This document shows positions 13,689-49,495 of a DNA stretch of 49,495 nucleotides, in pieces. The stretch's first letter is position 1, and each line of letters starts with the position of its first letter. The position numbers were made by a program, and so were the translations under genes. The notes beneath the pieces are model-generated. The model did not search any database, was not told the DNA's origin, and saw nothing but the letters and a program-made list of their open reading frames with translations. The stretch lies in IMG/VR virus record IMGVR_UViG_3300025098_000074, positions 1 to 49,495 of that record. One strand, 5' to 3'. The stretch is from a virus.

Positions 13689-15401
13689 TTATGGTAACAT
13701 AGTTGTGCTTAATCTTTCTTTTGTTTTGCTTCCAAAACCACCATATTCATTTAATATAGGTAATAAGCTTTCGTTACTATCAGGATTGTAACTAGGTAGT
13801 TCATATTGTTTTTTGTTTTCAGCATCATAAACATATAAATCTTGAGCCATGTTTTTAAAGTTTTCTATATAGTCATCATCTATTTTATTACCATCTCCAT
13901 CTTTTGTTCCTTTGACTTTTTCTAGTTGACTAATTAAATCAGCTTTAGATTTAGCGTTTATACCTTTAGATCTTAAATACGTTTTGTGTTTTTCTATATT
14001 TTTATTTCTTACTATATCTGCGTTTGTTTTATCTTTTGCTTCATTACCAGATAAATTACTAACCGCTTGTATAGGTGTTATTGGAATTTTAATAACTTCA
14101 TTAACAATTTGATCACCTAAAGTTGCTACATAACTGCTAGAAGGAATATCTTTACCACTTCCAATAGTTTCTACGTAAATAGGTTGACCAACTTTAACAT
14201 TTTTACCCAATGCCCTTAGGTTTTTAACATCTTGTGGTGTAGCTTTTCTTTGCTCTAAGTCAGAAAGTTTAGTATTTTTAAAATCTTCTATTAAAGCATT
14301 AACAACCTCTTGCTCTTGTTGAGGTGTTGTTTGTTTTTTAAATTCATTTACATTAAAACTACCATCTCTCATTTTGTAAGTCATAAAAGAACTTAACTGA
14401 CCATTGCCTCGAGCTAAATAACTAGTAGCTTTACCAAACATGTCTTTTTGAAAAGACTGTGAGTTAATAAAACCATCTACATCAATATACTTTGCATCAA
14501 ATATTTTTCCGTTTGAAATTATTTTAGAAACACCTGTCTCGCCACCTATAATATATTTTGGTGTTATACTACCTTCTTTAGATTCAAACCCGTTAGTTAT
14601 AGACATTTGATTATAATCTGCTTTTTCAGGTATTTCATCAATAAGACCTTCGTTCCATTCGTTTATATTTTTTTTCCACTCTAATTTATAATCATTATTT
14701 TTTAAAAATTCTTTAGTTTCTTCGTCTAAGTTTTTAAATAAATCAGAATTTTCATCTACAGTAGAAGTAACTTTAACTATCATAGAGCCGTTTTCACCAG
14801 GTATAAGCTCTTTACCACCAGTTAAACCGTCAGCTTTTTTACCACCTAAAACATAAGATGTTAACATAGATGTGTCTTTTTCTAATTCATTAGAACCAAC
14901 CCAAGCATGCGTACTAGCTATATCTTGTGCTAATATACCTTGCTGATCTTCTAAATCTGCTAAAATTTTTCCACCACCTTCCACTGCTGATATTTGAAAA
15001 GTTTGAGCTCTATTTACTATGTTTCTATAGTTTTGTCTTTCTTCTTGGGTTAAATCGTTTTGAGTTGCTAATAAAGTTTGTGCTTTTATAGCGCCAATGT
15101 TTTCACCACTTCCTCTTAACAAAAGCTCTGTTTGTTTTTTAAACTGATCTACCAATGAAGGATCTTTAGACGCTAATTCAGCATAGTTTTTATTAGCTTG
15201 CGCATAAGCTTTGTCTTCAATATCATAAGCTATTCTTTGCTGTCTTTCTATTTTTTCTTGAGCTTTTCTATTTGCTTCTTGTACTTTTTGCCCATAAATA
15301 GATATGCCTTTAGCTATAGACTGGCCAAAACTAGCTATAGCTTGACCGTATATCTGACCTGAGGTATCTCGTATTATTGCTGGATTTTCGTATGCTCCCA
15401 T
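13689..15401 (-). CDS. Internal virion protein (cargo-like), 570 aa
   Basis: The N-terminal 100 residues are long amphipathic helices rich in Ala, Gln and Lys (IASFGQSIAKGISIYGQKVQEANRKAQEK), a pattern of phage internal virion proteins that line the ejection channel. The rest is mixed and soluble with no catalytic motif that I see. It lies between the helical protein with the frameshift site and the giant cargo protein, so it probably belongs to the same ejected complex. It starts 10 bases beyond the end of the frameshifted reading frame of the upstream gene. The role is inferred from order and composition. Confidence 0.6.
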   Translation of the reverse strand: MGAYENPAIIRDTSGQIYGQAIASFGQSIAKGISIYGQKVQEANRKAQEKIERQQRIAYDIEDKAYAQANKNYAELASKDPSLVDQFKKQTELLLRGSGENIGAIKAQTLLATQNDLTQEERQNYRNIVNRAQTFQISAVEGGGKILADLEDQQGILAQDIASTHAWVGSNELEKDTSMLTSYVLGGKKADGLTGGKELIPGENGSMIVKVTSTVDENSDLFKNLDEETKEFLKNNDYKLEWKKNINEWNEGLIDEIPEKADYNQMSITNGFESKEGSITPKYIIGGETGVSKIISNGKIFDAKYIDVDGFINSQSFQKDMFGKATSYLARGNGQLSSFMTYKMRDGSFNVNEFKKQTTPQQEQEVVNALIEDFKNTKLSDLEQRKATPQDVKNLRALGKNVKVGQPIYVETIGSGKDIPSSSYVATLGDQIVNEVIKIPITPIQAVSNLSGNEAKDKTNADIVRNKNIEKHKTYLRSKGINAKSKADLISQLEKVKGTKDGDGNKIDDDYIENFKNMAQDLYVYDAENKKQYELPSYNPDSNESLLPILNEYGGFGSKTKERLSTTMLP

Positions 15402-15410
15402 GCGTTTATA

Positions 15411-15508
15411 TTAATTATTAAATAAATTTCCATAAAAACCTACGGTATCATTAGGTTTGTATCGTGTATTAAAAGTAGACGTATTTGTTTGCCCCGTCGG
15501 GCTATTTA
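15411..15508 (-). other. Minus-one frame extension of the 15506-16240 gene (32 codons)
   Basis: Reading past the TAA of the upstream gene in the -1 frame gives 32 sense codons (LNSPTGQTNTSTFNTRYKPN, then DTVGFYGNLFNN) before a TAA at 15411-15413. No ATG, GTG or TTG in this frame lies between the slip site and the protein-like part, so it could only be expressed by frameshifting or as part of a mutated longer gene. The extension ends just before the next gene's start and fills what would otherwise be an empty 104-base gap. A decayed fragment or assembly error is the alternative. Confidence 0.55.
15491..15502 (-). promoter_or_regulatory. GC hairpin downstream of the slippery site
   Basis: On the minus strand GCCC-GACG-GGGC forms a four-pair all-GC stem, six bases after the GGGAAAC heptamer, within the five-to-nine-base spacing usual for frameshift stimulators. 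It is short, so by itself it is a modest stimulator. It stands out in an AT-rich genome. Confidence 0.45.
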
Positions 15509-16240
15509 GTTTCCCGGCGCGTATGCTCCAATAGCTGCGCCCGCTATATTTCCTACACCACTTAAAGCTCCACCCCAAGCTGCTGCTTGAGCGGATTTTG
15601 CATCAGCCTCTTGTTGTTGCGCTTGTGATATTTGACCCGCGGCTCTATTAAGATCCATATTTGTTCTATTTTCTTTAGCTTGAAACATAAACTGTTTACC
15701 TGCTGCTTGAGCTGATTGAACCCTTTGCCCTTCTGAAATAGCAATACTTTGTAATCTTTGTTGCTCAGACATTTTCATTTGCTGAAGTTGTTGTTCACCT
15801 TGAGCTTTAAGTTTTTCGTTTTGAGCCTCTTGTTGTTCTATACTTGCGGCAACACCTTTTTTGCTTTGTAAAGCAGCTTGCGCTAAAGCAGTAGCACCTC
15901 CAGCGCTAGCACCTGTAGCTCTTAATGTGTCTAATGTATTTGCTAAAGCTATATCAGCTTGCTCAATTTGTATTTCAGCGGCACTAGTAGCAACACCTAA
16001 GTTAGCGTAAGGATTAGAAATCATACCGCTTAAATCTTCTGCTGAAGCAGATAAATCTGTTACTCCAGAATAAGGATTTATTATAGTTTGTCTACTTGCT
16101 TTTATAGAATCTAGCTCGCGCTGTGCTGCGTTTTTATTTCTCTGAGCTCTACCCGCTGCTTTTTTTGCTTGATTAGCACTAACAGCTCCTCCTAACAAAG
16201 AAGCTCCTGCGCCAACGGCTAATGCTGTTACTAATCCCAT
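15506..16240 (-). CDS. Ala/Gln-rich helical internal virion protein, probable frameshift gene
   Basis: The 244-aa zero-frame product begins with a glycine/alanine hydrophobic segment (residues 1-25, LVTALAVGAGASLLGGAVSA), continues as long Ala/Gln-rich helices (about 25-210), and ends with a second Gly/Ala segment (AAAWGGALSGVGNIAGAAIGA). T7 gp14-type internal proteins have a similar make-up: small, helical and able to enter membranes during ejection. Its last two sense codons and the preceding G form GGGAAAC, so a fraction of ribosomes may slip to the -1 frame and add 32 residues (see the separate entries). It sits between a GNAT gene and two further internal proteins. Confidence 0.65.
   Translation of the reverse strand: MGLVTALAVGAGASLLGGAVSANQAKKAAGRAQRNKNAAQRELDSIKASRQTIINPYSGVTDLSASAEDLSGMISNPYANLGVATSAAEIQIEQADIALANTLDTLRATGASAGGATALAQAALQSKKGVAASIEQQEAQNEKLKAQGEQQLQQMKMSEQQRLQSIAISEGQRVQSAQAAGKQFMFQAKENRTNMDLNRAAGQISQAQQQEADAKSAQAAAWGGALSGVGNIAGAAIGAYAPGN
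15509..15515 (-). promoter_or_regulatory. Candidate -1 ribosomal frameshift heptamer GGGAAAC
   Basis: In the zero frame the bases read ..G GGA AAC followed directly by TAA. This is the X-XXY-YYZ form needed for simultaneous P/A-site slippage, and differs only in the last base from lambda's GGGAAAG used for gpG/gpGT. A stop codon immediately after the A-site codon and a hairpin six bases on are typical accompaniments. Confidence 0.55.
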
Positions 16241-18071: not shown

Positions 18072-21000
18072 TTAACATGTACTTACAATAGTTATTATAC
18101 CATTAGCACCTACTTTAAAAAAATTTCTATTACTAAGACCTGTATTATTACAGTTATAAGAATAATAAAATGCTGGAGCTAAAGGTGAACTACTTCCGTT
18201 GGGACCAACTCTTATTTCATCACCAACTGTAGGGGTAGAGCTTGTTTGGTTGTAATAAACAGATTGACCGCACGTGGAATTTACAGATCCACTAAAATGA
18301 CATGATTGTGATTGTACTCCAGGATCACTAGCATAAAATAGAGTGCCTATAACTGTAGAATTTACAACAACTTGTTGATTTGCTGTAGAGCTTAATGAAC
18401 CATTTGTTGTGTTCCCGTTTGCATCTTCTAATTTTATTGTTAAATTAAAAGTACCTGAAGGAGTAGAGGCATTAGGTCTAGACAACACGCCTGTGGTTTC
18501 GTTTATTGAAAATGAATTTAAAGTGTTACCTGCTATAATACTCCATTTTAACTGTTCTGTATTATCACCAGGAAGATTTGAAGAAGAACCATTAGTGCCT
18601 GTTATTGTGCCTATAGTTCCAGTGTCTGCTGTAGTTATAGTTATAGTTGGTAAAGAATTTCCACTATTTATTATTGGCGCAATGTTAGACAAATTACCTC
18701 CAAGATATATTCGTGAAGACTCAACAAAATCAGGAGCAGGACCTACTATTATACAACCTATTGTAAATTCTCTAATGTTTACAGTTTCATTAAAAACAAA
18801 ATTACCATTAGTAGGGTCAGTTATAAAACTATAACCAGAACCAGAATCGGGTACAAAACCAAATAAACCAGTTACATTATTACGAGCATTATCAAAAACA
18901 CTAAATGATCCAGGCTTTATAGTAGTTCCTGTTATTGGAACACCACTATTGTCAACTGGAAAAACACCTGACGCAAAAGCAGCGCCTTTAGCTAAATTTT
19001 CTGGTTGATTCCAAGTATACGATGCCCAACCAACCGCACCTGTAAAATTAGTTAATACAGCTGCATTTAAATCAGCTATTAAACCAGTAGTAGGTGTTTC
19101 CCAAAATATATCTAATAAAGACTCTACAGGGTTTGTTTCATATATAGCTAAAACTGGAAAATCATCATCACCTGATTGAGTGTCTTGTCTACCTATAGTT
19201 TGATTTCTAGTGCTTATCCTCATTAAATAAGGATCAGTTTCATTTTGATATATGCTAGGATGTTTGCTTAATGCAGCTTCACCGGTTAAAGTAGATTCTA
19301 CACCTATAGCGTCTACATCATGTGTTTTTATTCCAGGATAAAACTGTTGATTTAAATTTACAAAAGTACCCTTATTTAGGTTTTTATTTTCAACTCTTCC
19401 AGATAGCTTAATACTGCTTCTATATTGTTTTTGTTCTGGTCCAACTTCTGATAAATCTCTAGGTATTTTATTTATATTATCTCCAAATAAAGTAGAAAAA
19501 GCTGTTTCTCCTAATTCTTCACCAAAATACTCTGTATGACCAAAATATCCGTTTACTATACCTGGCAAATATGCGTTGTAATAATCTTGTTCTTGTTGTT
19601 TTACTACAATTTTATATGAATACCAACCAATTGGATTCAAATTATATGCAAATTTAACATCAGCTCCAGAATTGCCACTGTCATCATATATTTCTTTATT
19701 TATATTTCCGTCACATGTTACGGTATATTTACCCGCAGAAGGTGTATTAGCCTCAACGTTAGTGACTTTGACAAAATCTTTATATTCACCTCTAAGATAA
19801 TCATTTTCTTGAGGAATATTAGTCGTTGCAGTTGGTATAAAAACATAAGAAGAACCTGTTACAAGAGCATCAAAAGCATTATCAACATCAAAACCACTTC
19901 CTCGTGGAATAGCATATAAACCAGGCTGCCCTATTGATGGACCTGATTCTTTAGGCAAGCTATTTGCTCCACCAGAATCTATAGTACTTTCTAATTGTAT
20001 TTTTAACGAATCACCAAACCATTCTTTAATAGCATAATTAGCTGCATCTGTTGCTGTATAAAACGGATTAAAAACAGTGTCGCCACCATAGTTATTAGGA
20101 GGTTCAGATATACTTTCTGGCTGAACATTTGAAAGTATAACATCAGATTGTCTACCATATTTATCCGCTAAAACAAAACCAACTTGATAATTTCTATTTT
20201 GTTTAAGAGAATGATTTGGATATTCAGCCCAAGAGTTATAGTTTTTAACAGTGCTTTTAGGCCCTGCAGCTACCCTATAATTTAAATGAAGAGGCGGAGT
20301 GTATTTATCTTTAAAATTACCGTATATAACTCTATTACCAGCTGTTTCTTGTGCAAAAGCTTTTACAGGAACTTTATCATACACTCTTGTTGTTTGATCT
20401 TGTGGTAGTGTTCTAAATGGTTTTCTTGATTGATAATCATAATAAAAAACAGATGAAGTGCCAAACCAATCTGAATCTTCTTCATTTATAGTATCTAAAA
20501 CCTTTACGCTAAGTCCATCTGATTCTTTGTATAAAATATCAACAGAAGAAATTTTATAATTAGCATCAACACTGGTGTTAACATTATCTATAGCATCTGG
20601 AAAAGGTATTAATAAACCTACGTCTTGCACACCGTTTTCCATAAACTGAAGAATTGTGCTTCTGAACGCGTTATCTTCATCTAAAGGCGTTGGTGTAGCA
20701 CCAGTACCAAGATCTCCACTACCTAAAAAATAACCTTTTTGTTTAGGTATAAAAGCAGCCTGTGTAAAAGGTGCCATTAAAGAATATTCTCCATCGTTAA
20801 ATCTAAACCTATAGCTAAATCTAACAAACTTGTCTTCTAAAAAATCCGGATCACCAGGCCAAGTACTAGCGCTGCCGTTATTAAAATTATCTGTAATATC
20901 TACACCAGTCATAGTTGTTGCTAAAAATGTAACGTCTCCAGCAATAATATTACTTGACTTATTAATTGTAATTGTAGTTCCAGAAACATTTGTTACATAT

Positions 21001-21704
21001 ATATAATCTTTAGCTTCTAAAGCAACATTATTATATTGAACCACAGTCATACCTTGATATATACCAGTAGCATCTGCTACTGCAATAGTTGTAGAAGCGC
21101 CTGCAGTTGTGGTTGTGGTTGTAACTTTGTTTAATAAACTTATAGCTTGATAAGGATTATATTTAGCAACAGAAATATTACTTTCTTCTTTATAATAACC
21201 TGGGTTTTCTTTAGCTTTTTTTACATTTATTTTTCTAGGCTGATTCCTATCATCAGTGAAAAATAATAAATTTTCTATAGAGCTAACACCTGTTATAAAA
21301 TGTGTTGTTGAAAAATTTAAAAACGAACCTGAAACCAATAATTTCCAAGTGTTTTGAGCAGATGTAGGGCCTAAAAAAAATTCATAAATATAACACTTTG
21401 CTGATAAAGGCGCATACGCTGGATTTCCATCATCATATGGATCAGTATAATTCGTTAAAAAAACAACTATAGTATTATTTTCTTCGTTGGTATGTTGGCC
21501 AATTATACTTAAACTATTATCATTAAGAGATGTTATATCAACTAAATCATTTCCTAAAACAGTTTCTAAAGCACCTATATCATCAGCTTCAGATTTACCT
21601 ACAGATATGTTCTGCGCATCTCTATATTCACCATTAGGTATTAATCTATCATCCAAGTCTTTATTCATCTTGGATCTTAGAAAACTATTTTTAATTTCAG
21701 CCAT
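18072..21704 (-). CDS. Large tail nozzle/muzzle-like protein with C-terminal cadherin-like domain
   Basis: This 1210-aa protein begins KMNKDLDDRLIPNGEYRDAQNISV, the kind of N-terminus found on podovirus tail tubular B/nozzle and crAss muzzle proteins. Most of it is beta-structured. Around residues 1050-1145 is an immunoglobulin/cadherin-like unit (WSIIAGNTLNSFSINETTGVL, then LTIKLEDANGN), the pattern of bacterial cadherin-like repeats that bind sugars or proteins. A short Cys-containing end follows (four cysteines in the last 80 residues). Its place directly after the ring/connector genes fits a tail tube or tip protein that closes the DNA channel and may touch the receptor. Confidence 0.65.
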   Translation of the reverse strand: MAEIKNSFLRSKMNKDLDDRLIPNGEYRDAQNISVGKSEADDIGALETVLGNDLVDITSLNDNSLSIIGQHTNEENNTIVVFLTNYTDPYDDGNPAYAPLSAKCYIYEFFLGPTSAQNTWKLLVSGSFLNFSTTHFITGVSSIENLLFFTDDRNQPRKINVKKAKENPGYYKEESNISVAKYNPYQAISLLNKVTTTTTTAGASTTIAVADATGIYQGMTVVQYNNVALEAKDYIYVTNVSGTTITINKSSNIIAGDVTFLATTMTGVDITDNFNNGSASTWPGDPDFLEDKFVRFSYRFRFNDGEYSLMAPFTQAAFIPKQKGYFLGSGDLGTGATPTPLDEDNAFRSTILQFMENGVQDVGLLIPFPDAIDNVNTSVDANYKISSVDILYKESDGLSVKVLDTINEEDSDWFGTSSVFYYDYQSRKPFRTLPQDQTTRVYDKVPVKAFAQETAGNRVIYGNFKDKYTPPLHLNYRVAAGPKSTVKNYNSWAEYPNHSLKQNRNYQVGFVLADKYGRQSDVILSNVQPESISEPPNNYGGDTVFNPFYTATDAANYAIKEWFGDSLKIQLESTIDSGGANSLPKESGPSIGQPGLYAIPRGSGFDVDNAFDALVTGSSYVFIPTATTNIPQENDYLRGEYKDFVKVTNVEANTPSAGKYTVTCDGNINKEIYDDSGNSGADVKFAYNLNPIGWYSYKIVVKQQEQDYYNAYLPGIVNGYFGHTEYFGEELGETAFSTLFGDNINKIPRDLSEVGPEQKQYRSSIKLSGRVENKNLNKGTFVNLNQQFYPGIKTHDVDAIGVESTLTGEAALSKHPSIYQNETDPYLMRISTRNQTIGRQDTQSGDDDFPVLAIYETNPVESLLDIFWETPTTGLIADLNAAVLTNFTGAVGWASYTWNQPENLAKGAAFASGVFPVDNSGVPITGTTIKPGSFSVFDNARNNVTGLFGFVPDSGSGYSFITDPTNGNFVFNETVNIREFTIGCIIVGPAPDFVESSRIYLGGNLSNIAPIINSGNSLPTITITTADTGTIGTITGTNGSSSNLPGDNTEQLKWSIIAGNTLNSFSINETTGVLSRPNASTPSGTFNLTIKLEDANGNTTNGSLSSTANQQVVVNSTVIGTLFYASDPGVQSQSCHFSGSVNSTCGQSVYYNQTSSTPTVGDEIRVGPNGSSSPLAPAFYYSYNCNNTGLSNRNFFKVGANGIITIVSTC

Positions 21705-36152: not shown

Positions 36153-36698
36153 TTATTTTTTATGTTTTTTTCCGTACATTTTCATACCTTCAGACTCTCT
36201 TTTTTCTTTATCATCTTGAAAGATTTTCTTTTTATCATTTTTTATTTGAATTCTTTCTTCAGCCATGTCTTTATCGTAGTTAGCTTTTTTGGGTCCTTTT
36301 TTATGTCCATATTTTCCTGGAGCAGCTTCTATTTTTTTCTTAAGTTCTTCAGGTAAATTTTTTTGTTTACCAACTAGTTCTTTTTCAGGTCCCATATGTT
36401 TACCATATTTACCAGCCCCTTGCTCAGCTTTACTAGCGTGAACTGCTTTTCTTTGAGCGTCTGATTTATATTTAGGCGTTGACATAAACTTTCCTTTTGA
36501 ATGACCTCCTGAAATTATTTTAGCTGATCCCATAGAGTTATTTTCCATTTTAGTTTCTTTTCCAGATAAAACATCATCTTGTGACTGACTTATTTTACCC
36601 ATACCTTTTTCTATTTTAACACCGCCTCCATGAGCTTTACCACCCATTTTTGGTCCTAAAGACGAAAGACCATTTACTGTTTTACCACCGTATCCCAT
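36153..36698 (-). CDS. Gly/Lys-rich basic protein with SDAQRKAVHASKA motif
   Basis: This 181-aa protein is very basic and low in hydrophobics, with glycine-rich (GKTVNGLSSLGPKMGGKAHG) and lysine-rich halves, so it is probably disordered. The central KSDAQRKAVHASKAEQ motif occurs in small phage proteins that I recall as unannotated. Repeated GKYG(K)HMGP/GKYGHKKGP at about 95-135 looks like an internal duplication. DNA condensation inside the capsid is one option; no function is shown. Confidence 0.5.
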   Translation of the reverse strand: MGYGGKTVNGLSSLGPKMGGKAHGGGVKIEKGMGKISQSQDDVLSGKETKMENNSMGSAKIISGGHSKGKFMSTPKYKSDAQRKAVHASKAEQGAGKYGKHMGPEKELVGKQKNLPEELKKKIEAAPGKYGHKKGPKKANYDKDMAEERIQIKNDKKKIFQDDKEKRESEGMKMYGKKHKK

Positions 36699-39176: not shown

Positions 39177-39433
39177 AGCACAACTACTACATTGGCCATG
39201 TTAACAACTTGATATATCTCTTTATTAATTTCTATTTGATGGCAGTTATTTTTATCAAAATAAATAACATCATTTTCATTAATTCCAATAACATTGCTTC
39301 CAGCTGATAATACAGTACCTTCAGCATATCTTATATCCTCTCGTTGTTTTTCTGCTAAGAAAAGACCTCCTTTTGTTTCAGAGACGCCTTGCTTAGTCAT
39401 ATTAACTATTAAATTATTCCCTATTGCCTTCAT
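39173..39433 (-). CDS. groES: Co-chaperonin GroES (phage-encoded)
   Basis: This 86-aa protein has the chaperonin-10 layout: NNLIVNMT first strand, a mobile loop VSETKGGLFLAE with the GroEL-binding hydrophobic tripeptide after GG, then AEGTVLSAGSN and INENDVIYFDKNN, and a terminal strand pair ending VVVVL. It begins inside the last codons of groEL (20-base overlap), so translation is coupled. It should cap the phage GroEL, as T4 gp31 caps the host chaperonin. Sequence is divergent but structural landmarks are in order. Confidence 0.85.
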   Translation of the reverse strand: MKAIGNNLIVNMTKQGVSETKGGLFLAEKQREDIRYAEGTVLSAGSNVIGINENDVIYFDKNNCHQIEINKEIYQVVNMANVVVVL

Positions 39434-40973
39434 TAACTCTTAAATTATTAATTACACAATTGGTTGATAAAATAGTTGATGCTACAGATGCCGCGTTTTT
39501 TAATGCACTTTTTGTGACAAGTAAAGGATCGATAATCCCTGACTCAATCATATTAACCATATTTCCTGTAACTACATCTAAGCCTTTTCCTTCAGTTAAA
39601 GATGTTTTATAGTTAACTATACCTGCGTTGCTTAAAATAGTCTTAAAAGGCGCTTGAATAGCTCTTAAGAGTATGTTTTCATAAGCGTTAGAAGTTTTGA
39701 CTTGCTGTGCAGCATTTAATAATGCAATACCACCTCCTGGAACAATACCTTCTTTTATAGCAGCTTTAGTTGCACATATTGCATCTTCAACTCTATCTTT
39801 CTTTTCTTTTAATTCAACTTCTGAATTAGCCCCTACTTTTACCACAGCAACTTTACCTGACAACCTGGCTAATCTTTTTTCAATATTAACCACTATACCA
39901 GGATGCTTAGCTGTTTTAAGTTTGGCTTTTAAATCTTTTATTATTTCTTTAACCTCATTACATACTTCACCAACATGTAGTATAGTTTCAGTTTGGCTTG
40001 TTACACTTTTTTGTATTTCACCTAAATGTTCTGGCCCTATTAAATCAATGTCATCACCTAAATCTTCATTTATAACAGTGGCTCCAGTAAGTAAAGCTAA
40101 ATCTTCTAATGTTTCTTTTTTATTAACCCCATAGACAGGTGCATCAATTAAGTTAACCTTTATATTACCTTTTAATTTATTCATTGCTAAAGCAGACATA
40201 ACTTGTTGGTCTACATCGGCTATAATAAGTAATGATCTATTTTGTTTTATAACGTGTTCTAAAACACTTTGTATTTTTCTAACGTTTTCAACTTCAGACT
40301 CAATAATTAAAACTAATGGTTTTTCTAATTCAGCTGTATTAGTTTCTTTATTTGTTACAAAATGTATATTCTTTAATCCTCTATCGTATTGTATACCATC
40401 AATAGTTTCAAACTTTGTTTCTGGTAAGTCTGATACTTCAAGTATAACAACACCTGTTTCGTCAACTGATCTAAAAGCATTTGCAATAATTTTACCAAGT
40501 TCAGGATCGTTATTAGTAGATATAGTAGCTACTTGATCAATCATATCTCCTTTTACTGTAGTAACTATTGAGTTTAAATAATCAACAACTTTATCTGTTG
40601 ATGTTTCTATAGCTTTTTTTAAATCTCTAGAGTTTTCTTTTGTTGCAACTTTATAAGCCTCTTCTAAAATAGCATGAGCTAGCACTGTAGCAGTAGTGGT
40701 ACCGTCTCCAGCTTCTCTAACTGTTTTTCTAGCCGCTTGTCTTAATAATGTTGCTCCCATATTTTCTACAGGATCTAATAGTGTTATAGCATCTGCTACT
40801 GTTACACCATCTTTTGTAATAATTGGTTCACCGGTTTGATCTTCTAACATAACACACTTACCACTAGCCCCAAGAGTGGAGCTAACGGCTTGTGTAAGTT
40901 TTGTAATACCAGCAAACACATTGTTTTTAGCATCTGAACCGAAGCTCAGATTTTTTACAATTGCATTTGACAT
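39414..40973 (-). CDS. groEL: Chaperonin GroEL (phage-encoded)
   Basis: This 519-aa chaperonin has the ATP site intact: GDGTTTAT at 89-96, catalytic D397 in RVEDA, and PGGG near 412-415. Apical, intermediate and equatorial domains are all represented. It is shorter than E. coli GroEL (548 aa) and lacks the flexible GGM repeat tail, ending NEGNRE. Phage chaperonins usually help fold capsid or other virion proteins. Gene order is groEL then groES, the reverse of most bacterial operons. A leader of TTTGA repeats lies upstream. Confidence 0.95.
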   Translation of the reverse strand: MSNAIVKNLSFGSDAKNNVFAGITKLTQAVSSTLGASGKCVMLEDQTGEPIITKDGVTVADAITLLDPVENMGATLLRQAARKTVREAGDGTTTATVLAHAILEEAYKVATKENSRDLKKAIETSTDKVVDYLNSIVTTVKGDMIDQVATISTNNDPELGKIIANAFRSVDETGVVILEVSDLPETKFETIDGIQYDRGLKNIHFVTNKETNTAELEKPLVLIIESEVENVRKIQSVLEHVIKQNRSLLIIADVDQQVMSALAMNKLKGNIKVNLIDAPVYGVNKKETLEDLALLTGATVINEDLGDDIDLIGPEHLGEIQKSVTSQTETILHVGEVCNEVKEIIKDLKAKLKTAKHPGIVVNIEKRLARLSGKVAVVKVGANSEVELKEKKDRVEDAICATKAAIKEGIVPGGGIALLNAAQQVKTSNAYENILLRAIQAPFKTILSNAGIVNYKTSLTEGKGLDVVTGNMVNMIESGIIDPLLVTKSALKNAASVASTILSTNCVINNLRVNEGNRE

Positions 40974-48440: not shown

Positions 48441-49495
48441 TTAATTATTTTCTAACGTTTCGATTCTAGCTTTTAAACTATCGTTATCTGCTTTTAATTC
48501 TTGTATTGACTTAATTAAGGTAGGAACAATTTCTTGGTATCTTATCGCCCAACCATCATCGTCATAATTTTCAGGTTTGTGAACAAACTCACCATGGTCT
48601 TCGTATATTTCTTGAGCAACCATACCAACTGTTCTACCTTTTTCTCTTTTCCAATCTTCATCAATCCAATCAAACTTCTTAACATGATCCGCTAAGGAAA
48701 CAATTTTATTTAAACATTCATTTGTTTGTACGTCACTAAAGTTTTCTTTAGATTTTACATCTGAAATACTTACACTAATTAATCCCTGTCCAATATAACT
48801 AGGATTACTACCAGAGCTTGTAGATGCATTTGTTAATTGTGCATTACCTTGTAAAGCAGTAATATATAAACCACCTACTCTCATACCACCTACAAAATAT
48901 CCTTGTCCATTACCATCAATACTAAATTTCTGTGTAGCAACAGTATTATTAGCAGAGGCAGTCATAAATTTAATAGTTGAGCCACCACTTGGTCCTGACA
49001 AACTTATTCTTGCGTGTGATTTAGCTGTGTCTGAAAAAGCACCTGTATTAGGATCTCTGTTTACATCTAATTCTAAATCCGTGCTATTAAAATTAATAAA
49101 ACCATCATTTCCAAGACGTGGCAACGCTAAAGCTCCATTACTGTCTATACGCATATATTCTGTACCAGAATTACTATTTGTAAATACGTGGTTATTAAAT
49201 GAATAATAAAAAGCATCTTGTCCTGAATTATTACCTATAGAACCGTAATTTGTGCTACCATTATTACTATTCCATTGAATAAAGAAGTTGTTGTCACTTG
49301 AACGCCCTTGTAATCTCAAACCTGTTGTAATTCCATCTGGTTTTAAAGTCACAGCGCCATCAGAAGCAATACGCATTCTTTCTGCAACAGTTTCGTTTGA
49401 AATTGTACTAAATGCTAAATAGCTGTCAACTGTACTTGGAGTTCCTGTCCATTGTTGTTCTGCACCAAAAGTTATTGCTTTTACTTGTCTTACAA
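48441..49495 (-). CDS. Second S74-chaperone fibre protein, 5' end outside window
   Basis: The frame is open to the right edge; the ATG at 49376 is internal, because coding sequence without a stop continues upstream to 49495. The visible 350 residues are Ser/Gly/Asn-rich fibre sequence with repeated RI(A/D)SDG/N units. The C-terminal 107 residues are an S74-type autochaperone (SDVKSKENFSDVQ, later TVGMVAQEIYEDHGEFV) with a coiled-coil end (ELKADNDSLKARIETLE). Its SDxK-S-K version of the SDxRLK motif is altered, so cleavage efficiency may differ. It lies one base before the large fibre gene. Confidence 0.75.
   Translation of the reverse strand, partial: VRQVKAITFGAEQQWTGTPSTVDSYLAFSTISNETVAERMRIASDGAVTLKPDGITTGLRLQGRSSDNNFFIQWNSNNGSTNYGSIGNNSGQDAFYYSFNNHVFTNSNSGTEYMRIDSNGALALPRLGNDGFINFNSTDLELDVNRDPNTGAFSDTAKSHARISLSGPSGGSTIKFMTASANNTVATQKFSIDGNGQGYFVGGMRVGGLYITALQGNAQLTNASTSSGSNPSYIGQGLISVSISDVKSKENFSDVQTNECLNKIVSLADHVKKFDWIDEDWKREKGRTVGMVAQEIYEDHGEFVHKPENYDDDGWAIRYQEIVPTLIKSIQELKADNDSLKARIETLENN

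Follow-up and report, generated by a model that had tools for sequence, protein, structure and literature searches.

Frameshifting that adds a C-terminal extension to a phage structural protein has been described in several systems. Gene 10 of phages T7 and T3 yields the 10A/10B pair: ribosomes that shift to -1 close to the 3' end of this virion gene make a minor particle protein with a longer C-terminus (PMC5009743). In Listeria phages PSA, A118 and A500 and in Lactobacillus phage A2, -1 or +1 shifts extend capsid or tail-shaft proteins; the +1 shifts occur beside the stop codon, and it seems to matter little whether the extension is reached by -1, +1 or in-frame decoding (PMC5009743). Of the slip sites relevant here, G_GGA_AAG is highly shift-prone in Escherichia coli and G_GGA_AAC is a phage-type g-t shift site in the archaeal virus HCTV-1 (PMC5009743). 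A cellular case, the A_CGA_AAG frameshift that yields an extended cytidine deaminase from Bacillus subtilis cdd, has been described as incidental (PMC5009743).

The locus analysed here lies in a 49,495-nucleotide stretch of viral DNA, the whole of which is referred to as the window. Judging from the sequence comparisons below, it very probably encodes a programmed -1 ribosomal frameshift, by which a virion protein with a swappable C-terminus, probably of ejection type, is also made in a minor form extended at that end. As such it would join the known cases of programmed frameshifting behind minor extended virion proteins, with a different class of gene. The product would resemble T7/T3 10B in being a particle protein lengthened at its C-terminus in a minority of copies, but 10B derives from the major capsid protein whereas the gene here encodes a helical protein near muzzle and giant internal genes, and the T7 slip site, unlike that of the window, is not G_GGA_AAN. 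The Listeria and Lactobacillus cases share the C-terminal extension of a virion protein and the mixed decoding routes; they differ in affecting capsid and tail-tube genes with often Ig-like extensions, as opposed to an ejection-type protein with short tails that are not Ig-like. With lambda gpG/gpGT the locus shares a GGGAAAG-type heptamer and a -1 shift near the 3' end, but it is a virion gene in a genome of podovirus type, without a T-gene overlap or a tail-length ruler, and the tails are 16-45 aa long. A slip sequence resembling that of cdd, A_AAG near the gene end, was found in relative L051 (CTA_AAG_TAA); unlike in cdd, the extension of L051 is shared between phages (L051 and L192). Known phage frameshifts are concentrated in tail chaperone, capsid and tail-tube genes. 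This locus adds another class of virion gene, with a conserved recoding site, in a large group of uncultivated Bacteroidota viruses; searches of open-access text found no relevant earlier report of frameshifting, whether in ejection or internal proteins of the virion or in phages that infect Bacteroidota. The features of the locus are as follows.

15506..16240, minus strand: zero-frame gene of 244 aa, an ORF with hundreds of IMG/VR relatives
15509..15515, minus strand: slippery heptamer G_GGA_AAC, read directly from the sequence
15506..15508, minus strand: zero-frame stop TAA, immediately 3' of the heptamer
15491..15502, minus strand: hairpin GCCC-GACG-GGGC, candidate stimulator, 6 nt past the heptamer
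15411..15509, minus strand: -1 frame extension, 32 sense codons and a stop, with a homologous -1 tail in relative L241
13689..15401, minus strand: next gene, 570 aa, the anchor for gap measurement in relatives

The original prediction had placed the slippery heptamer GGGAAAC on the stop codon of the 15506-16240 gene, a GC stem six bases past it and a 32-codon -1 frame in the gap before the next gene, and all three are present as described. The 244-aa gene, read on the minus strand, closes with GCG CCG GGA AAC TAA, and its heptamer (15515-15509) is correctly framed as X_XXY_YYZ. Among 14,323 in-frame positions in the window, G_GGA_AAN occurs once, at this stop; an A_AAA_AAA run was also observed near the stop of one other window gene (36153-36698). 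The -1 frame from 15509 has 32 sense codons, LNSPTGQTNTSTFNTRYKPNDTVGFYGNLFNN, and its stop (15413-15411) lies 9 nt ahead of the ATG of the 570-aa gene at 15401, giving a predicted long product of 244 + 32 = 276 aa. An open -1 frame arises in 8 % of shuffled versions of the gap (p = 0.08), which is too weak to serve as stand-alone evidence. The GC stem (15502-15491) has 4 bp and -6.8 kcal/mol, a value equalled by 0.5 % of dinucleotide shuffles (p = 0.005), and its 6-nt spacing falls within the 5-9 nt or so expected for a stimulatory structure. Larger RNA folds of the region were unremarkable (z = -0.2 for 119 nt and -1.55 for 101 nt), so that strong extended RNA structure is unsupported past the small hairpin. 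A second IMG/VR contig, 3300025070_000164 (L002), is identical to the window across 10,732 nt; this identity and the recurrence of the pattern across many phages rule out an assembly error, and chance is ruled out by the pattern of heptamers and gaps in relatives.

Scans of IMG/VR gave several hundred loci encoding a protein of the 244-aa type, and 11 further loci were found in bacterial or archaeal assemblies, seven of them labelled Bacteroidota. Three relatives (L326, L330 and L332) sit in MAG contigs labelled Woesearchaeota and Ilumatobacteraceae, which are probably misbinned virus contigs. After near-copies were collapsed, 225 distinct 3' ends were retained. Most of these leave no more than about 40 nt before the next gene, and in 31 of the 225 the gene is followed by a gap of 50-160 nt (long-gap relatives). 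Scoring canonical heptamers at up to five codons from the stop, it was found that 24 of the 31 long-gap relatives carry one compared with 9 of 190 short-gap relatives (Fisher 9e-19). The long-gap heptamers comprise 21 G_GGA_AAN and 3 A_AAA_AAG; the nine short-gap heptamers consist of A and T only, and G_GGA_AAN at the stop was found in none of the 190 short-gap relatives. Across the relatives' genes, G_GGA_AAN occurs 23 times in the last five codons versus five times at all other positions. The -1 frames behind the long-gap heptamers stay open for 16-42 codons and end just ahead of the next gene, and two loci in which the next gene could not be placed (L249 and L398) have the same arrangement.

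Seven of the 31 long-gap loci have no canonical -1 heptamer at the stop (L051, L076, L341, L342, L411 and two +1 candidates, L083 and L090). Less canonical -1 options are present in four of them, namely A_AAG (L051), G_GGG_AAG (L076), G_GGG_GAG (L341) and T_TTT before TAA (L411). In L342 an in-frame TGA lies a few bases 5' of an otherwise intact GGGGGAAAG-TAG site, so that the zero frame stops ahead of the heptamer; a recent mutation or a recoded TGA is possible. The zero-frame stop is UAG in 19 of 33 long-gap loci versus 16 of 192 others (p = 6e-10), and slow termination at UAG may help slippage.

The heptamer and the -1 extension are conserved together in more than 20 distinct relatives, which supports, at the level of sequence, the original prediction that a programmed -1 frameshift in an ejection-type virion gene could produce a minor tagged form. 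Relatives with a closed -1 frame and no intact heptamer, which had been raised as a contrary case, were found to have no gap either: the whole cassette is missing, not broken. A dedicated scan for the other contrary case, the window tail fused in frame 0, matched only the window phage and L241 and found no such fusion. In L241 the window tail (KPNDTVGFY..LF) is matched by KYKPNDTVGFYSSLFDD, likewise in the -1 frame, behind a G_GGA_AAG heptamer one codon ahead of the stop, so the tail is retained even though the stop has moved by one codon. Tails of the DTWAVND type are found behind GGGAAAG in L349 and behind AAAAAAG in L163 and L168. The slip property is retained while the letters of the slip site change.

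Selection on the extensions was estimated from ten homologous tail pairs (302 codons), one of which (L084/L083) compares a -1 tail with a candidate +1 tail. The pN/pS ratio was 0.45, somewhat flattered by the protein-guided alignments, compared with 1.03 (SD 0.14) in simulations without selection and with the same number of changes, in which 0.45 was never reached. Differences between tails fell at codon positions 1, 2 and 3 in the numbers 73, 48 and 106. By these measures the extensions evolve as protein.

Hairpins were scored if they had at least 4 bp, started 3-10 nt past the slip site and reached -3 kcal/mol or better. Such a hairpin was found in 20 of 31 scored -1 loci, compared with 13 % of positions drawn at random from these genes, and a clear hairpin is missing in the other 11, two of which (L249 and L398) are outside the long-gap class. 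The stems are unrelated in sequence (for example GCCC/GGGC, AACCCC/GGGGTT, GCCCTC/GAGGGC and AGGGGC/GCCCCT), which fits pairing being what is kept. A near-identical stretch, GGCAACTCCTAGTGTAAGTCC, was also observed 3' of the stop in L051, L076, L084, L324, L342 and L411; it encodes ATPSVSP in the -1 frame, and its loci differ greatly in slip site and have no clear hairpin. On the comparative evidence as a whole, site, spacing, hairpin and protein-coding extension are conserved or re-acquired across relatives.

The 244-aa protein was examined by sequence, profile and structure. Its core gave no family match and no direct PHROG match, tblastn found no named phage encoding it, and a PDB profile search returned only an insignificant match. 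The AlphaFold model is all-helical with a 127-residue helix (mean pLDDT 75, pTM 0.41), and a fold search with it gave no match (best E 2.2). Hydrophobic Gly-rich segments are present at both ends of the protein. Terminase and portal are followed by the head genes, the muzzle-like proteins and then the 135-aa, 244-aa, 570-aa and 2276-aa genes, and matches to these first two were found in phages of Flavobacterium, Cellulophaga, Maribacter and Tenacibaculum. The muzzle-like genes are as follows.

18072-21704, minus strand: muzzle-like gene, 1210 aa
16655-18052, minus strand: muzzle-like gene, 465 aa

The crAssphage-type muzzle protein seems to be split between these two, with the N-terminal part in the 1210-aa gene and the C-terminal domain in the 465-aa gene.

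In Cellulophaga phage phi38:1 (gp099) and Flavobacterium phage elemoF (gp20), the same position, between a gene of the 135-aa type and mid-size and giant genes, is occupied by annotated virion structural proteins of phrog_13764. Profile-profile comparison with cultivated members gave a weakly positive result (probability 95 % over 74 columns). These two genes differ from the window gene in abutting the next gene, in having no frameshift cassette in their records and in giving no direct HMM match to the core. The gene order also recalls the small, medium and giant internal gene trio of T7-type phages; in the comparison with T7 gp14 the 244-570-2276 aa order fits, without a family, PDB-sequence or fold match. 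Gene position, the all-helical model and the virion-protein counterparts in cultivated phages suggest that the 244-aa protein is probably an internal or ejection-type virion protein. Two other identities were rejected. A major capsid protein is at odds with the long, all-helical, strand-free model and with a gene that lies past the head genes, over 12 kb downstream from the portal. A G/GT tail assembly chaperone is at odds with the neighbouring 135-aa and 570-aa genes that follow the muzzle-like proteins and with a tail of 32 aa.

In the proposed mechanism, most ribosomes would terminate at the TAA, which gives the 244-aa protein. The downstream hairpin and the stop codon would hold up a minority of ribosomes, and these would slip one base back on G_GGA_AAC with both tRNAs re-pairing on GGG AAA and read 32 further codons. 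In the resulting 276-aa form, the hydrophobic Gly-rich segment at the C-terminus of the short form would be followed by a polar tail of 32 residues. In E. coli the second codon of a slip site is usually less effective as AAC than as AAG, so that slip efficiency at the window site may be low. Bacteroidota hosts hardly use Shine-Dalgarno pairing, which would leave the hairpin and the stop codon as the stimulators. We infer slippage, its rate and the entry of both forms into the virion, which would then contain mostly untailed subunits and a few tailed ones, as T7 virions do with 10B, their dose and role being likewise putative.

The frequent gain and loss of tails, and the occurrence of a frame-0 tail in relative L029 related to the tail of L034, raise the alternative that the gap contains what is left of a tail once read in frame 0, which indels have turned into an out-of-frame remnant that is untranslated or adventitiously translated. 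Reviewers have suggested that out-of-frame cassettes are sometimes rescued by frameshifting (PMC5009743). Remnants, however, would lose their stop-free frames, a pN/pS of 0.45 and a heptamer at the stop in more than 20 loci, and L241 has retained the window tail in an out-of-frame position; we regard decay as improbable. The hairpins just 3' of the stop in most long-gap loci, and the nucleotide stretch common to a subgroup, would also be expected if the conserved element were DNA or RNA, with a hairpin acting in transcript processing, termination or translation of the next gene and the open -1 frame incidental. That reading is very improbable: amino-acid constraint reaches the last tail codons, far past the hairpin, 190 short-gap relatives dispense with any such element, and the in-frame heptamers are left unexplained.

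An extended form could also arise by transcriptional rather than ribosomal slippage, and the A_AAA_AAG runs in L009, L045, L163 and L168 can promote polymerase slippage too. The window and most relatives, however, have GGGAAA without a long homopolymer, and heptamer framing and downstream hairpins suit ribosomal slippage, so that we give the transcriptional route very little weight.

Only one case was found in which related tails are decoded in frame 0 and in -1, with L029 and L031 (frame 0) set against L034 (-1). L034 has PPVEVGEEWGSYTPSL in the -1 frame behind G_GGA_AAG_TAA, and in the related L029 PPTEVGETWGSYTPTL is read in frame 0; the comparison shows that the peptide is real. A possible +1 route was also found. 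L084 has VNTVSTLTPQGYSF in the -1 frame behind G_GGA_AAT_TAA, and the homologous tail VSTVSTLTPQGYSF of L083 and L086 lies in the +1 frame behind TTT_GGG_TAA_C. The same motif is present in L090, but with a different tail. It is plausible that TTT_GGG_TAA_C is a +1 frameshift site, and the candidates are as follows.

L083, 3660-3730: candidate +1 site, TTT_GGG_TAA_C
L086, 3660-3730: candidate +1 site, TTT_GGG_TAA_C
L090, 3600-3724: candidate +1 site, TTT_GGG_TAA_C

In six further relatives (L010, L052, L054, L063, L067 and L169) the C-terminus is a frame-0 domain resembling the endosialidase chaperone (Peptidase_S74), here joined to a protein that is not a fibre; the Pfam cut-off is passed by L169, and two others are just below it. 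Sister pairs were observed in which one member has the whole cassette and the other has none. The presence of frameshifted tails needs at least 17 state changes on a quick tree, a count that serves only as a guide since the tree is poorly resolved at depth. By these comparisons the C-terminus of this family is a swappable cassette: some members lack a tail, and others have one in frame 0, in -1 or probably in +1, or else an S74-like domain in frame 0.

The extension has been overlooked by annotation because the gap reads as empty. Slip site, stop codon, spacer and stem all occur in many natural versions among the relatives, within a single setting, and the idea that phages hold the dose of a tailed isoform constant irrespective of how it is decoded becomes testable. 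More tentatively, and with considerable doubt on our part, a clade of Bacteroidota podoviruses may systematically make a minor tailed isoform of an ejection-type protein, with the dose, a small share of subunits, under selection, the tail a rapidly exchanged cassette and lineages switching between -1, +1 and frame-0 decoding. If this were true, the tail would serve the genome-ejection apparatus as a targeting or gating element present in limited copies.

Elsewhere in the window, the gene at 48441-49376 also has an S74 match, and the phage encodes its own GroEL-type chaperonin at 39414-40973 on the minus strand (Pfam Cpn60_TCP1, E 8e-56; phrog_5725).
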